A program made the position numbers and the translations under genes. From an uncultured Terriglobales bacterium (GTDB taxonomy: Bacteria; Acidobacteriota; Terriglobia; Terriglobales; Acidobacteriaceae), in the NCBI GenBank assembly GCA_955652395.1, contig CATPBJ010000087.1, positions 1 to 64,000 of the forward strand: DNA of 64,000 bases. Direction: 5' to 3'. Numbering within the stretch: the stretch's first letter is position 1; each line of letters opens with the position of its first letter. Positions 1 through 7,155 of the stretch are shown here, piece after piece. The notes below the pieces were generated by a model. The model was not told where the DNA came from and did not search any database. It was given only the letters and a program-made list of their open reading frames with translations.

Positions 1-252
1 CGGTCGCGGCATCACTCGTAGAATGTCAGACTTCGAGTGGGGCTATATGCAAGGGAAATTCTCGGCATTACGCTGGGTACTCGGCACAGAGTGGGATTTC
101 CTAGATACGTAAACAGGTGCCTGAGTCAGGTTGCCAAGGCGTCCTCGACGGTTCGAGCCTACGAAGCTATAGAACCTGTATCGAGAGAATCATTACGCAG
201 GTCGCGTTCGCCCTGAACTGGCTTTCTCGCGCATGAACTCGTTACGTGGTAG

Positions 253-853
253 TCATAACATTGCCCACAGACTGTCGCACTCCATCTGGGTGGCCACGGC
301 GAGTTTCCCACAGGGCGTTACGTCTGCATCACCTGAACTGTATTCGATTTGGCAAGCATTCGTATTCATCTCCTCGATGAGCAGGGGAATGACAAGTCTC
401 AGCGCAGCTATTTCTTTGCGTAGCCTTACAGCCTCAATCTCCTTTTGTCGTATCTGCGCCTCAGCTAAGAGACGCTCGTGATCAAAGAAGGCTGCGGCGC
501 ACCTGGTGAACTTGTTGACGGCCTCGGTGTACGTGGCCATCGTGGTCGACAGCGTAACCATGTCGTCCTTTTGCCACAACCTGAACACGTATTGGCCGAA
601 ACATTCGGACAGCATAGCGAAGAATGCGAGGAATGGGATCAAAAACCAAGGACCGTCTGACTCCCCGAGACAAACGGTCCCAAGTTCCCAGTCGCGCAGT
701 GGGGAGGAGCGTTGCAGCTGCACGTAGGTAGCTCTGCAAGGCCTCATATACCACAAAAGGATCGGCTAATTCAAGTTTGTTAGGGCTGTAACAGGATGTG
801 CCTGTCGTACGGTAGGAAGTAGTAGTACTGAGCTTAGATCGCCCTAGTGGCAA
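253..853 (-). pseudogene. small conserved-type ORF, possibly frameshifted; coiled-coil C-terminus (EIEAVRLRKEIAALRLVIPLLIEE)
   Basis: Two overlapping minus-strand ORFs (482..853 and 253..756) look coding in complementary portions (ADPFVVYEALQSYLRAAATLLPTARLGTW, then CFGQYVFRLWQKDDMVTLSTTMATYTEAVNKF); frame continuity cannot be proven by eye. Confidence 0.35.
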
Positions 854-1037
854 TTGCGTGCCTTAGTCTGTCCTTCCCCTCATTGTTCAGAAGCCAAGCG
901 TGGTCACCGTGCGCTGAGCTGTGCATCACTTTAATCTCCAAATCATTGGCCAGTGCACCTTTCAGTTCACCGTCGCCCAACATGACATAAACCTCAACGT
1001 CAGCATTGCATTCGTTACAGTGTGCTCGGAAAGTCAT
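834..1037 (-). CDS. small hypothetical protein (67 aa) with CxxC (HCNECNADVEVYV)
   Basis: ORF track; Cys-pair motif; collinear with neighbouring minus-strand small ORFs. Confidence 0.4.
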   Translation of the reverse strand: MTFRAHCNECNADVEVYVMLGDGELKGALANDLEIKVMHSSAHGDHAWLLNNEGKDRLRHAIATRAI

Positions 1038-1066
1038 GATTTCCCGGAGAGGTTGAGCTTACGCCG

Positions 1067-1480
1067 TTATTTGGGAGTGACGATGACTCCTACGATTCTT
1101 TCGTTCATCGCATCCACAATTGTTCGTGCCTGCGCCAACGTCGCACCTCGTAACATTTCAAATCCAATCGATAGCGAGGTGAGACTTGGCGCGTCATCAA
1201 GTAGCTCTAATTTGATCTCGGGGCCGTGATCCGTTTCCACGACGAGAAATCGACAACCGCTCCGCTCAACTCTAGGCGTCATCTTGAACGGCTTCTTTAT
1301 CAGACGTACCGTTTCCGTACCTGGTGCAGCACTCGGGGTCTCCCTCGATGGCAACCGACATTCAAACTGTTCTAACTCCGCCTGAGCCTCAAAAACACTT
1401 GCATTGTCTGAGGTTCGTCCACATCGCTTGCAGAACCATTCCCGCGTAGCGGCATTCCATGTGAGATTTTCGTGTTTCAT
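1067..1480 (-). CDS. hypothetical protein with N-terminal CxxC zinc-binding-like motif (WFCKRCGRTSD)
   Basis: 137 aa ORF, ATG start, plausible composition, CxxC. Confidence 0.5.
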   Translation of the reverse strand: MKHENLTWNAATREWFCKRCGRTSDNASVFEAQAELEQFECRLPSRETPSAAPGTETVRLIKKPFKMTPRVERSGCRFLVVETDHGPEIKLELLDDAPSLTSLSIGFEMLRGATLAQARTIVDAMNERIVGVIVTPK

Positions 1481-1524
1481 CGAGAACCCTCTGCATATCA
1501 GAGGTTAAGCACTGCGGAGACTAC

Positions 1525-1624
1525 ACTAATTTGGTGATGATTTTCATCACTATCAGGTGGAGACCTGATATTTAGCAGGAATAATTTTGTAGCGGGGTTG
1601 ACGTTGGTATTCTGTGGATTCTTC
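1525..1624. repeat. copy A of a diverged ~100 bp repeat (other copy 4019-4124)
   Basis: Direct comparison: ..ctaat..tcatcactatcag.gtggagacctgatatttagcaggaataattttgtag.. versus ..ctaat..ttatcactatcaaaggtggaaacctgagatttggcggggacgattatgtag.. Confidence 0.55.
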
Positions 1625-2107
1625 TGCCGCGCGGGCGATTCCCACCGGACTATGCTGGTGGACGATTGCTCCTCCCAAACGCCTCGGGAATTGTCTCAAA
1701 GGCGATGGCCCGCAGGTAGCGAATGTGGTCTCGGATGGCTGCTTGAAGTTGAGGCAGGATGACGTTTGAATCAGCTTCGCTCTTGGCCGCAATAGCCTGG
1801 GCGGTAGCGGATTTGGTGTTGCAGGCTGGACGATGACATGCTTGGCATAATGCGATGACATTCGAGATTGGATCAATACAATTGTTGCTGTAGCGCGGGT
1901 GGCGATTACCCGACTTTCACAAAGAAGTCAGACCAAGCATCTAGACAAGAAGAACGGGACGACGCCCTCTCGGGTGCCATCCTTTTCGTTCATGGCACAC
2001 AAAATACGAAGTGGCGCGTTAAGATAAACGTCTTTGGGCGTTGCTGAACATCGGCTAAAGACCCGAGATTCTCGGTAGTTATAATGTAGGCCTCCCAGCC
2101 CAGCTGA

Positions 2108-2374
2108 TTAGCTTGCCTTGTCAAACTTGAGCCTAGATGCCTCTGGACTCGCAGCAGAGTTGGATTCTTGCGGCGTGCCAGAGATTTCCCATCCGCTATG
2201 GTCGGGCTCCGGCGTAACATTTCTCGCAACCGAGTGGACACTCGAATCGTTATCGTTGTCCGATTCCTCATTTTCCGAGAGAAGAGGGGCTGCTACACGT
2301 AACGCCTCCACTTGTTCTTCCACCCGTGACAACTCAAGTGCCTTCTGTCCCAAAACCTCCCAAACGTCCTTCAT
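2108..2374 (-). CDS. small hypothetical coiled-coil protein (88 aa)
   Basis: ORF MKDVWEVLGQKALELSRVEEQVEALRVAAPLLSENEE..., heptad-like N-terminus. Confidence 0.45.
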   Translation of the reverse strand: MKDVWEVLGQKALELSRVEEQVEALRVAAPLLSENEESDNDNDSSVHSVARNVTPEPDHSGWEISGTPQESNSAASPEASRLKFDKAS

Positions 2375-2509
2375 GTAAGCACCTCAGGATTATCTAGAAA
2401 TATGCGCAAGCAAATCGCATGTTGGATTCCCGCGCCACACCCAGGTTCTTCCGTTCGACCGCTAGACAATAGCTTGCTCCAATTCCGCACTTGCTAGCTC
2501 ACAACAATG

Positions 2510-3109
2510 TCAGCCAGGAGCGGGCTCGGTGTGGCGTTCTCGCTGGAACAATTCTTCGCGTCCCGCCATCTGGGAATATTTAGAATTTCGGATCTTGAAC
2601 CACGTCACTTGCTGCGGCTCGGTGACGTATGGGCCGTGCGAAAGCTTCGCCACGATGCCCTCCACGTCCAACTTGCAGATACGTTCGAACAGCGCTGTTC
2701 CCTGGCGCTCGACATGGTCCGCATATCGCAACCGAGATGATGGATGACCAAACAGTAGGCGTCTTAATTCCTGTTTACGATCTACGAGCCTTTCTGCGCG
2801 CAAGTCCATCGAAGGCGAAGAAGCAGGGCTCTCCGCGATGAAACAATAGATCACGGAATTGTGGTCGGCCACGTCTATCGAGACAGACCATTTCGCCGTC
2901 GAGTACGGTTTTCCCTCCGAATGGTACGGAGATTTCTTTGCCGAGGTCTGAGTATGAATTGAACGCATGACCATTGCGCGAGATCCACTGAGTGCGCCCA
3001 TTCTCGATGACGGCGAGAGCCCGAAACCCGTCATACTTCAATTCATAATCCACTCGGGATGGTCGAAGGGCGCAGGACGGCGCGAGAGCGGCATGGGCTG
3101 GAATGCCAT
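2510..3109 (-). pseudogene. minimal ATP-dependent DNA ligase (adenylation domain), disrupted
   Basis: MAFQPMPLSRRPAPFDHPEWI (frame 1, ATG at 3109) / YELKYDGFRALAVIENGRTQWISRNGHAF...LDGEMVCLD (nucleotidyltransferase motif KYDGFR and downstream motifs, frame 2) / DLRAERLVDRKQELRRLLFG...DVEGIVAKLSHGPY...WFKIRN (frame 3). Frame changes near 3050 and 2805. Confidence 0.8.
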
Positions 3110-3242
3110 GCCGATAGCGTAGCAAGGGCGACGGCGAAAGGAGGGCGAATGGCGTTTTCGGATAAGGCGTCGAGAGACTTTTCCACGCATGGAGCAAAAC
3201 ACCAAGAGTGCGACGCATCTTAGTCAGTCCTGAGGCGACGCC

Positions 3243-3604
3243 GTGGATGTCCTCATTGTGGACGACAACCCGATGGTAAGACGTGCTGTACGAGATCTTT
3301 CGAGAGCGATCCTGCGTTTCAGGTCTGTGGGGAAGCGCAGAATGGTCTGGAAGGTCTGGAGAAGGCGGTGGAGTTACGCCCTGGACTGATTGTCATGGAT
3401 TTGGCGATGCCCAGGATGAATGGACTCGATGCCGCCCGTGAGATAAATCGCGCTATGCCTACGATTGCGATCATTCTCTTCAGTGGTTACGCTCACCTAC
3501 AAAAACTAGATATGCTCCTCTCGGCTGGCATTTCTGCGGTGGTGGATAAGGAAGAGGCCTCGGAACTGATCGCCGTAGCGCATGATCTGAGGAACGCCGC
3601 CTAG
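3243..3604 (+). pseudogene. single-domain response regulator receiver, frameshifted
   Basis: VDVLIVDDNPMVRRAVRDL (GTG 3243, frame 0), then after ~3300 frame 2: FESDPAFQVCGEAQNGLEGLEKAVELRPGLIVMDLAMPRMNGLDAAREI; one missing base restores the reading frame. Confidence 0.75.
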
Positions 3605-3612
3605 ATCAGCTT

Positions 3613-3855
3613 ACTCGTGTCGATGACCGCCAAGCCTTCACTTCCTCACGCAGATTTGCCAATCTGTTCGCGACATCGATGATCGCCTGATTTTCTTCGG
3701 GAGTACCCCCCGTGATTCAAGGAGAACTCATGGAGTCGTCCTTTTATCGCGGCCTCGGCAGCCTCTATGCGCTCATCGATTTTCGCCGTTGTCCAATCGC
3801 TTTCGAGCACGGCTACGTTGTAAAGCTGTTCCCATTTCTGTCCCGTCATGGACAT
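3613..3855 (-). pseudogene. small conserved-type protein, frameshifted at a C/G homopolymer
   Basis: MSMTGQKWEQLYNVAVLESDWTTAKIDERIEAAEAAIKGRLHEFSLNHGG then, by removing one base in the CCCCCC run (~3706-3711), TPEENQAIIDVANRLANLREEVKAWRSSTRVS*. Confidence 0.55.
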
Positions 3856-3948
3856 CTCCTACGGCCAGACCCACCCCCAATTTATTTGAGATTAAAATCC
3901 ATGTCGGTACGCTAGCGTCCACTGGGTGCCGCCGTTCACCTCCAAGAC

Positions 3949-3982
3949 AAAAGGGACAGCACCCGAAGGTGTCATCCCTTTT
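3949..3982. repeat. hairpin AAAAGGGACAGCACCCGAAGGTGTCATCCCTTTT; related hairpin at 1951-1987
   Basis: Near-palindrome read directly; similar gacgggacgacgccctctcgggtgccatcctttt at ~1951-1987. Confidence 0.5.
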
Positions 3983-4018
3983 CCCAGTTTCGATTTGAGG
4001 TCAATCGTTGAGGTCGCC

Positions 4019-4124
4019 TCCAAACTAATCTGCTGACAACTTTATCACTATCAAAGGTGGAAACCTGAGATTTGGCGGGGACGATTATGTAGGACTTGAC
4101 ATCGTATTTCTCTGCATTCTTATG
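4019..4124. repeat. copy B of the diverged ~100 bp repeat; minus strand can encode NAEKYDVKSYIIVPAKSQVSTFDSD
   Basis: Aligns by eye to 1525-1624; minus translation resembles ...EYQRQPRYKIIPAKYQVST at copy A. Confidence 0.55.
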
Positions 4125-4339
4125 CCCGTGTTCCTTGACGCATGATGACTATCATGTCGGGCTTCCCTTACGGCTTCTTTAGCGTGGCATTTGAGTCTGC
4201 TTCGACGATGACATCGACGCGCGCTCCAGGTTTGAGGCGCGCGTGGAGGTTCCCGAGCTGGGTGAGTTTTTTCAACTGTGATCCCACAGCCGGTTTACTG
4301 CCCCACTTCTTTACGCGGATTGCCGTCCTAGTCCAATCC

Positions 4340-4465
4340 AGATGCAAGCCAAGCCTGTCGCTGTACGTCATCAAGACGCTGCATAGCTGCGGGAATCCAG
4401 TGCTCATATGTCTTGCGAATTTCGTTAGGCGACGTTCCTACCATCGTATAAGAAGTTTGGGACTA
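4340..4465 (-). pseudogene. probable C-terminal remnant of a tyrosine recombinase/integrase
   Basis: Minus-strand frame reads ...SYTMVGTSPNEIRKTYEHWIPAAMQRLDDVQRQAWLASGLD*. 'hydrophobic-GTS...I.K.Y.HW....' is typical of the end of phage-type integrases. No upstream domain is present, and the fragment is next to a tRNA fragment. Confidence 0.45.
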
Positions 4466-4544
4466 AGAATTGGGACTAACCAGAGTGGGTTTTGAAGTGG
4501 ATTTTCGATGCTAAGCGACGCCGAATCAATAAATTTCCACTGTG

Positions 4545-4583
4545 TCCCGAACCAGGTGCTCTACCAGGGTGAGCCACGCCCCG
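4545..4583 (-). tRNA. truncated tRNA-Pro(CGG): 5' half only (acceptor 5' strand, D arm, anticodon stem-loop)
   Basis: Minus strand CGGGGCGTGGCTCACCCTGGTAGAGCACCTGGTTCGGGA. GCTC/GAGC D stem and UU-CGG-GA anticodon loop are present; the following CACAGTGGAAATTT does not complete the CCAGG stem, T arm or acceptor. Confidence 0.75.
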
Positions 4584-4771
4584 ACTACACGAACTGAAGC
4601 GACGATCGGAACTGCGCGGTACGATGGCATGGGGCCCGCGCGTCTGATTCCATTAGAAGTATAGCATCCTGAGGTGGCCGGCTTCCCTCGGCATGAACCG
4701 TTGTGGTCCGCAACACCTGCGCGTGAGGGTGCATCGTCCTCTGCGGAAGGTTCTCTGGATTTTCCTATAGA

Positions 4772-5995
4772 ATGAGTGCTTCGCTCACAAGATTGTCATC
4801 CATGATCGCGCTTACCGCCACAACCTTGTTTACTCCACTGGAGCGGATCGAGCAGCCATTGCTGCTGGTGGAAGACGGCACCATCGTTGAACTGACGTCG
4901 CGGGTGCGCCGCGAAGTTCCGAGAAATTGCCGCACGGTGGATTTTGGCGACGGCATACTGGCGCCCGGATTTGTTGACATCCATATTCATGGCGGCGCCG
5001 GTCATGACGTGATGGAAGCTGGAGCCGACGCACTGCCGCCGCTTGAGCGGCTTCTGGCGTCGCACGGCGTCAGCAGCTATCTCCCCACGACCGTTACGGC
5101 GCCGATGGATGCCACACTCTCCGCGTTGGCGCGGCTGGCGGACGCAATCGAAGCCGCAGATCGAAATTCGCATTCCACTGATCGGCCGACCGGCGACCTG
5201 CGGGCGCGGCCGCTGGGAATTCATCTTGAAGGTCCGTTCATCAGCCACAGCCGGCGGGGAGTTCATCCTCCAGCGAACCTGTTGACTCCGTCTCTGGCTG
5301 CGTTTGATCGCTTTTGGCAGGCGGCGCGTGGGCACATTCGAGTAATAACGATTGCGCCCGAATTGCCCGGGGCGATTGAGGTCATGGCGGAAGCGGCCGC
5401 ACGCGGAGTTTGTGTGAGCATGGGCCACTCCGACGCTGACCTGAATGCAGCTCGCGCTGGTTTCGCCGCGGGCGGGCGACATGCGACTCATACGTTTAAC
5501 GCCATGCGGCCGCTGGATCATCGCGATCCCGGAATTCTTGGCGAAGTGCTGGCCGATTCGCGGCTCTCCGCCGACATCATCGCGGACGGAATTCATCTGG
5601 ATCCCTTGATCGTAGTGTTATTCCTGAGAGCCAAGGGAGCGGACGCCGCCGTCTTGATCACCGACGCTACCGCCGCCACCGGCATGCCCGACGGCCGCTA
5701 TCGCCTGGGTGCGTTGGAAGTGGAAGTGAAAGATGGCAGATGCCTGGCTGAAGGAAAACTGGCAGGCAGCGTCCTGACCATGGACCGGGCGGTCCGCAAC
5801 GTCATGCAGTTTGCTCAATGGGACTTGCAGCAGGCGGTGCGGCTCGCGACTGTGAATCCGGCGCGGGTCGTTAACTTGAATAACGGCGGCTTAAAGAAGG
5901 GTGGCTCGCTCGAGGCGAGCGCGACTGCCGATCTTGTGGTCTTGAGCGCGAGCGGCGAAGTAAGAAGTACGATAATCCGCGGAGCGGGAATCTGA
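4772..5995 (+). CDS. nagA: N-acetylglucosamine-6-phosphate deacetylase
   Basis: GFVDIHIHGGAGHDVMEA, LGIHLEGPFIS, SMGHSDA, ATHTFNAM motifs. Confidence 0.93.
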   Translation: MSASLTRLSSMIALTATTLFTPLERIEQPLLLVEDGTIVELTSRVRREVPRNCRTVDFGDGILAPGFVDIHIHGGAGHDVMEAGADALPPLERLLASHGVSSYLPTTVTAPMDATLSALARLADAIEAADRNSHSTDRPTGDLRARPLGIHLEGPFISHSRRGVHPPANLLTPSLAAFDRFWQAARGHIRVITIAPELPGAIEVMAEAAARGVCVSMGHSDADLNAARAGFAAGGRHATHTFNAMRPLDHRDPGILGEVLADSRLSADIIADGIHLDPLIVVLFLRAKGADAAVLITDATAATGMPDGRYRLGALEVEVKDGRCLAEGKLAGSVLTMDRAVRNVMQFAQWDLQQAVRLATVNPARVVNLNNGGLKKGGSLEASATADLVVLSASGEVRSTIIRGAGI

Positions 5996-6024: not shown

Positions 6025-7155
6025 ATGGCTGACAAAGGGGGATTCCCCCATTACATGCTGAAGGAAATCTTCGAGCAGCCGCAGGGCTTGCGGGATACGA
6101 TTGCGCCCCGCGTGTCGCTTGAGGAAGGCGTGGTGCGGCTCGATGAGGTCCGCATTAGCACGGATGAACTTCGGGCCCTGCGCCGGATCAACATCGTGGC
6201 CTCAGGCACCAGCCGGCATGCGGGCATGGCTGGCCAGTACATGATTCAGGACCTGGTCAACATTCCCGTGGACGTGGATTACGCCAGCGAGTTCGAGTAT
6301 CGCAATCCTCTGATCGGCCCCGGCGAACTTACCATTGTCATCACGCAGTCTGGTGAAACCGCCGATACGACTGCCGCCCAACGCGAAGCCAAAGCCAAAG
6401 GCTCACGCACCATTGCGATCTCGAACGTCGTTGATTCGACCATCGCGCGCGAGGCGGATGGCGTGCTCTACACCCATGCCGGACCGGAGATCAGCATCGC
6501 GTCCACCAAGGCCTTCACCGCCCAGATGGCAGTACTGTACCTGTTTGCGCTTTATCTGGGGCAGGTGCGCGGCAAGTTTGCCAAGGAGCAGCGTCGCCAA
6601 TACATTCGTGAACTGCTCGATTTGCCGGGCAAGATGGAAGCACTGCTAAAGTCTGCACCGCCCGTTTGCGAGAAGTTGGCTGAAAAATACTACAAGGTGC
6701 AGGACTTTCTCTTCATGGGCCGCGCCATTCATTATCCGGTGGCCATGGACGGCGCGCTCAAACTCAAAGAGGTTTCCTACATCCACGCCGAGGGCTATCC
6801 CACCGGGGAAACCAAGCACGGTCCCAATGCGATGATCGACGAGAACCTGCCGGTAGTGATCATCGCAACTTCCGACCACGAAGATTCAGGATCGATGCTT
6901 CGCTATGAGAAGAACCTGGCCAACATCCGGGGATTCAAGCAGCAGTCGGCGCGAGTGATCGCAATCGCGTCCGAAGACGATGAAGAGCTTGCCCGCCTGG
7001 CGGACCATACCGTCTTTGTTCCACAGGCCACGGAACTGCTGCTGCCACTTCTGGAAATTGTGCCTCTGCAGTTGTTCGCGTACTACATGACGGTGAAAAA
7101 AGGCCTGGACGTCGATCGCCCGCGAAATCTGGTGAAGTCGGTCACACTGGAGTAA
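6025..7155 (+). CDS. SIS-domain sugar isomerase/deaminase, GlmS C-terminal half without the glutamine amidotransferase domain
   Basis: KGGFPHYMLKEIFEQP linker, VASGTSRHAGM, ITQSGETADT, GETKHGPNAMID, DRPRNLVKSVTLE; the 376-aa ORF starts at the GlmS interdomain linker and nagA lies directly upstream. Confidence 0.9.
   Translation: MADKGGFPHYMLKEIFEQPQGLRDTIAPRVSLEEGVVRLDEVRISTDELRALRRINIVASGTSRHAGMAGQYMIQDLVNIPVDVDYASEFEYRNPLIGPGELTIVITQSGETADTTAAQREAKAKGSRTIAISNVVDSTIAREADGVLYTHAGPEISIASTKAFTAQMAVLYLFALYLGQVRGKFAKEQRRQYIRELLDLPGKMEALLKSAPPVCEKLAEKYYKVQDFLFMGRAIHYPVAMDGALKLKEVSYIHAEGYPTGETKHGPNAMIDENLPVVIIATSDHEDSGSMLRYEKNLANIRGFKQQSARVIAIASEDDEELARLADHTVFVPQATELLLPLLEIVPLQLFAYYMTVKKGLDVDRPRNLVKSVTLE

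Follow-up and report, generated by a model that had tools for sequence, protein, structure and literature searches.

How a tRNA gene came to be represented by its 5' half alone, and whether the gene was thereby lost, is the question raised by a locus near the left end of the window, the 64,000-nucleotide stretch of acidobacterial DNA analyzed here. The minus strand from 4583 to 4544 corresponds to nucleotides 1-40 of tRNA-Pro(CGG) and reads CGGGGCGTGGCTCACCCTGGTAGAGCACCTGGTTCGGGAC. It is identical at 39 of 40 positions to the intact tRNA-Pro(CGG) of the nearest relative, a genome of the same genus (G001), and a search of the whole source genome with the G001 tRNA region returned it with E = 4e-11, a match far beyond chance. 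The D loop holds the single mismatch (CTCAC for CTCAG), and identity ends at position 40. The initial annotation had described a tRNA-Pro(CGG) 5' half that diverges right after the anticodon loop; both statements hold, with the match one base longer than first given and stopping one base beyond the loop. As expected for a fragment, ARAGORN and Rfam called no tRNA gene or Rfam family in the window. A group I intron or other structured RNA in the anticodon was considered and rejected, as there was no Rfam match in 4300-4800 (E up to 10) and no tRNA 3' half scoring above shuffled sequences in 1-4560.

The location of the half was established from its neighbors. The adjacent gene (4772..5995, plus strand) is nagA-like and, from its sequence and neighbors, would encode N-acetylglucosamine-6-phosphate deacetylase. 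It marks the native locus: seven family members, G001 among them, have an intact tRNA-Pro(CGG) at most 1.5 kb from nagA and divergent from it, and in G011 the distance is about 5 kb. The G001 alignment is unbroken from window position 4544, across the native flank between the tRNA start and nagA (4584..4771), and through nagA itself; the half (4544..4583, minus strand) is therefore a 5' tRNA fragment at its ancestral, orthologous place, in gene orientation. Its upstream flank is native, and the foreign DNA is on its 3' side. In an island of the usual kind the native 5' half runs on into an intact tRNA, and this is not the case here, where identity stops at position 40.

The DNA on the element side of the junction (1..4543) has no counterpart at the orthologous locus of G001 and is decayed island DNA. 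Its GC content is 52.4% versus 59.2% in 4584-64000, and stop-to-stop frames of 200 aa or longer cover 13.5% of its bases versus 87.8%; the boundary between sparse and dense DNA that had been placed at the fragment is real, as both measures change there. The region contains a broken ATP-dependent DNA ligase gene (2510..3218, minus strand), for which one of two overlapping frames scores above the PF01068 cut-off and whose DNA is about 69% identical to contig C28 of the same genome, and a response-regulator receiver fragment (3368..3604, plus strand; PF00072; 73% DNA identity to C146). A small frame at 2108-2374 on the minus strand (MKDVWEVLGQKALELSRVEEQVEALR...) matched no Pfam family and overlaps a stretch with several similar places in the source genome and G001, at 69-76% DNA identity. 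About 100 nt from the tRNA break lies the relic of a tyrosine integrase (4298..4444, minus strand; PF00589). What remains are its final 49 codons, which include the RKTYEHW tyrosine region and are interrupted by one stop; they match the C-terminal end of a 341-aa integrase, encoded on contig C30 of the same assembly, at 96% identity. The integrase of the element may survive as this relic.

Between the relic and the half lies a segment (4446..4543, minus strand) with the position of the P' arm of an att site. Six acidobacterial genomes, namely the source genome (G000), G005, G083, G036, G405, and G268, have this 40-nt half with a homologous arm after it, and all six loci break at the anticodon loop TTCGGGA; nagA adjoins the broken half at four of them, including the one in the window. 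The proposal that integration at the tRNA-Pro(CGG) anticodon loop left this scar was borne out. In the window the arm carries GTCCCAA at 4470..4476, at the same offset as in G005, and a repeat search located a second copy 13 bp further on, at 4457..4463 (both minus strand). The arms of four of the six genomes contain GTCCCA(A) repeats in pairs with a 13-bp spacing, with GTCCCAA present twice in the source genome and in G005, against a background of 0.03 copies per 250 bp and none in the native flanks. The loop itself (4545..4551, minus strand), a known sublocation for crossovers, recurs in the broken 5' halves and in most of the 3' halves displaced in relatives, and TTCGGGA would be a typical 7-bp tyrosine-integrase overlap within which the crossover took place.

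The recurrence of this junction bears on two explanations that involve no such crossover. The contig belongs to a fragmented metagenome assembly (234 contigs, 88% complete), and the left edge of the window is the left edge of contig C87, 4.5 kb from the break, so that a misassembled or chimeric contig might be suspected; the same junction is found again in independent assemblies, and the half is at its native locus with its native flank, making this explanation highly improbable. Nearly as improbable is a deletion or rearrangement without site-specific recombination, in which an island of the usual polarity restored the gene and the 3' half was later lost by decay. The region is indeed decayed, and usual-polarity islands occur at tRNA-Pro(CGG) in G007 and G028, but a random deletion would not repeat a break at the same base next to a homologous arm in six genomes. 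No relative has the fragment without foreign DNA after it, so that neither of the refuting outcomes named in the initial annotation, a misassembly or the fragment in relatives without an island, was observed.

Family searches used samples of 200 to 398 genomes from one family. A wider scan for the junction pattern, with one genome per species from 84,980 species, gave six records, all acidobacterial; one of these (L199:11507-11580, corresponding to G226) has the homologous arm without a tRNA 5' half before it. The same arrangement was observed separately in G169 (L192:4813-4884), and these half-less arms represent either decayed junctions or another target. Viral contigs gave no match to the arm pattern. 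Pattern matches in G148, G168, and G076 that resembled broken halves were discarded, being tRNAs with CTAGG for CCAGG that continue into the 3' half.

The far ends of the homologous elements show what became of the gene in relatives. Three of the five relatives with the junction (G268, G036, and G083) have an intact tRNA-Pro(CGG) there, on the same contig as the half in G036 and G083 and across a contig gap in G268. G268 has the nagA-side half at C25:10507 and the intact tRNA at C18:3838-3914. A membrane-fusion gene ends C18, and pump and outer-membrane genes end C25; the two contigs were joined because the split genes appear to form a single efflux operon interrupted by the gap, and the join would give an element of about 14.3 kb. 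The cargo of this island (L210 and L235) includes an RND efflux operon (HlyD, AcrB-type, and OEP components) and a TonB-receptor-like gene. The intact tRNA of G036 is 4.4 kb past the broken half, and the same integrase end and promoter precede both. In G083, nagA and the broken half are followed after 7.9 kb by another degraded half, which has a short arm, and then by the intact tRNA; given that second half, the array is not one clean element.

In G268 an integrase frame, shorter than usual, ends 36 bases before the intact tRNA. The 38 bases preceding the intact tRNA are the same in G268 and G036, are near-identical before the other, broken half of G036, and are unlike the nagA-side flank; therefore the element carries a promoter and a tRNA 5' half, and it is the native 5' half that is displaced. 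A putative element promoter is located upstream of the rebuilt tRNA, around GTGTAGTAGAATG. PF00589 frames are present inside the G268 and G083 islands, and the window holds only the 49-codon relic, which belongs to a different integrase group from the G268/G036 enzyme. A G268-type integrase was absent from the source genome at E up to 1e-10, and no G007-type or C228-type integrase was found in window positions 1-4545.

These comparisons support a reading, to which we assign a probability of about 0.8, in which a tyrosine-integrase element that carried its own promoter and 5' half displaced the native 5' half of tRNA-Pro(CGG), the half now seen in the window. An integrative element would have recombined at the anticodon loop through its tyrosine integrase; the incoming DNA would have supplied a promoter and a tRNA 5' half and pushed the native 5' half aside. 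By analogy with the homologues, the element in the source genome would also have rebuilt tRNA-Pro(CGG) at the far end, past the edge of the contig, with the rebuilt gene transcribed from the element promoter, and would later have decayed. The window shows the native-side scar (attL). Since the far end here is unassembled and the assembly yielded no intact tRNA-Pro(CGG), the argument for regeneration at this locus is taken from the homologues. The initial annotation was correct in placing a scar at the border of native DNA and a decayed island. Its description of a broken gene needs amendment, as homologous elements carry an intact tRNA-Pro(CGG) at the far end, and its expectation of a displaced 3' half to the left of the break was reversed by G268, G036, and G083, which show that the half in the window is itself the displaced native part.

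A much less probable explanation, although one to be taken more seriously than misassembly or deletion, is that an element inserted at the anticodon loop and never restored the gene, so that a dispensable tRNA-Pro(CGG) was lost. No intact tRNA-Pro(CGG) was found in the source assembly, in G005 (99% complete), or in G405, and the source genome does contain a decayed tRNA-Pro(CGG) 3' half, from position 29 on, at C76:3148-3198 (L092), which would be the displaced partner. The missing genes, however, coincide with contig ends; the homologous elements of G268, G036, and G083 have intact far-end tRNAs; and the arm preceding the C76 half resembles, by eye, those of usual-polarity elements in G014, G148, and G168. 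Synteny of the downstream flank is not conserved among relatives, and C76 could not be placed from it. Its resemblance to usual-polarity elements makes tRNA-Pro(CGG) a hotspot for elements of both polarities. Clean usual-polarity cases are provided by G007 and G028, with 37 and 16.5 kb, respectively, between the intact tRNA and the 3' half.

Displacement of a native 5' half was also examined at a second proline tRNA of the source genome. Contig C228 (L093) has only the 5' half of tRNA-Pro(TGG) (845-803, 43 nt, 100% identity), followed by a tyrosine integrase frame at C228:738-4. The contig was assigned to the native tRNA-Pro(TGG) locus because its LigT-like and UDP-glucose dehydrogenase-like genes, named from their sequences, flank an intact tRNA-Pro(TGG) in five relatives. 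The only intact copy found in the assembly, at C184:156-232 (L094), has an upstream flank that differs from the native one. The two contigs, which are unlinked by sequence, likely represent a second case of the same polarity. We lean slightly toward the view that such elements repeatedly take over the transcription of proline tRNAs: the CGG and TGG genes would both have lost their native 5' halves here, and the sole intact tRNA-Pro(TGG) found, on C184, would be expressed from a mobile-element promoter.

The polarity itself is already known, and the element in the window is a further case of a known kind. The initial annotation was right that a residual 5' half is less common than a 3' one. The Islander survey recorded 5' fragments in 159 of 3,919 islands, about 4% (PMC4383910), and a review states that recombination with the 5' region of a tRNA is less frequent (PMC6563490); as cited in that review, the reversed orientation was first described by Zhao and Williams in 2002. 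Islander 5' tDNA islands (PMC4383910) share the displaced 5' half on the native side, the anticodon-centered crossover, and, as seen in the relatives, the intact tRNA at the far end and the internal integrase; they differ in that the element here is decayed, its far end is unassembled, and the host group is soil Acidobacteriota. After recombination in the 5' region, the rebuilt tRNA depends on a new promoter for its expression, and archaeal pTN3 is an example (PMC8371274; PMC5495485). In pTN3-type integration in Thermococcus (PMC5495485; PMC8371274), attP and attB likewise have in common about 40 bp from the 5' half of the tRNA, and the rebuilt tRNA is parted from its original promoter. In contrast, the pTN3 target is an archaeal tRNA-Leu and integration splits the pTN3 integrase gene itself, whereas the integrase frames in G268 and G036 stop immediately before the element promoter and the tRNA. 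Usual 3'-fragment islands, such as those of G007 and G028, use the same tRNA gene and anticodon loop but donate a 3' half and leave the native promoter in place.

What looked like an odd fragment can thus be mapped as an att junction of an island family that recurs in uncultured soil Acidobacteriota and donates promoters. With the 5'-fragment polarity, control of a host tRNA passes to an element promoter, and the occurrence of both polarities at one anticodon loop within one bacterial family makes the causes and costs of polarity directly comparable. On contig C43 of G005 (L129), three displaced 3' halves follow one another, at 7022, 9240, and 10886, suggesting serial integrations of the usual polarity.
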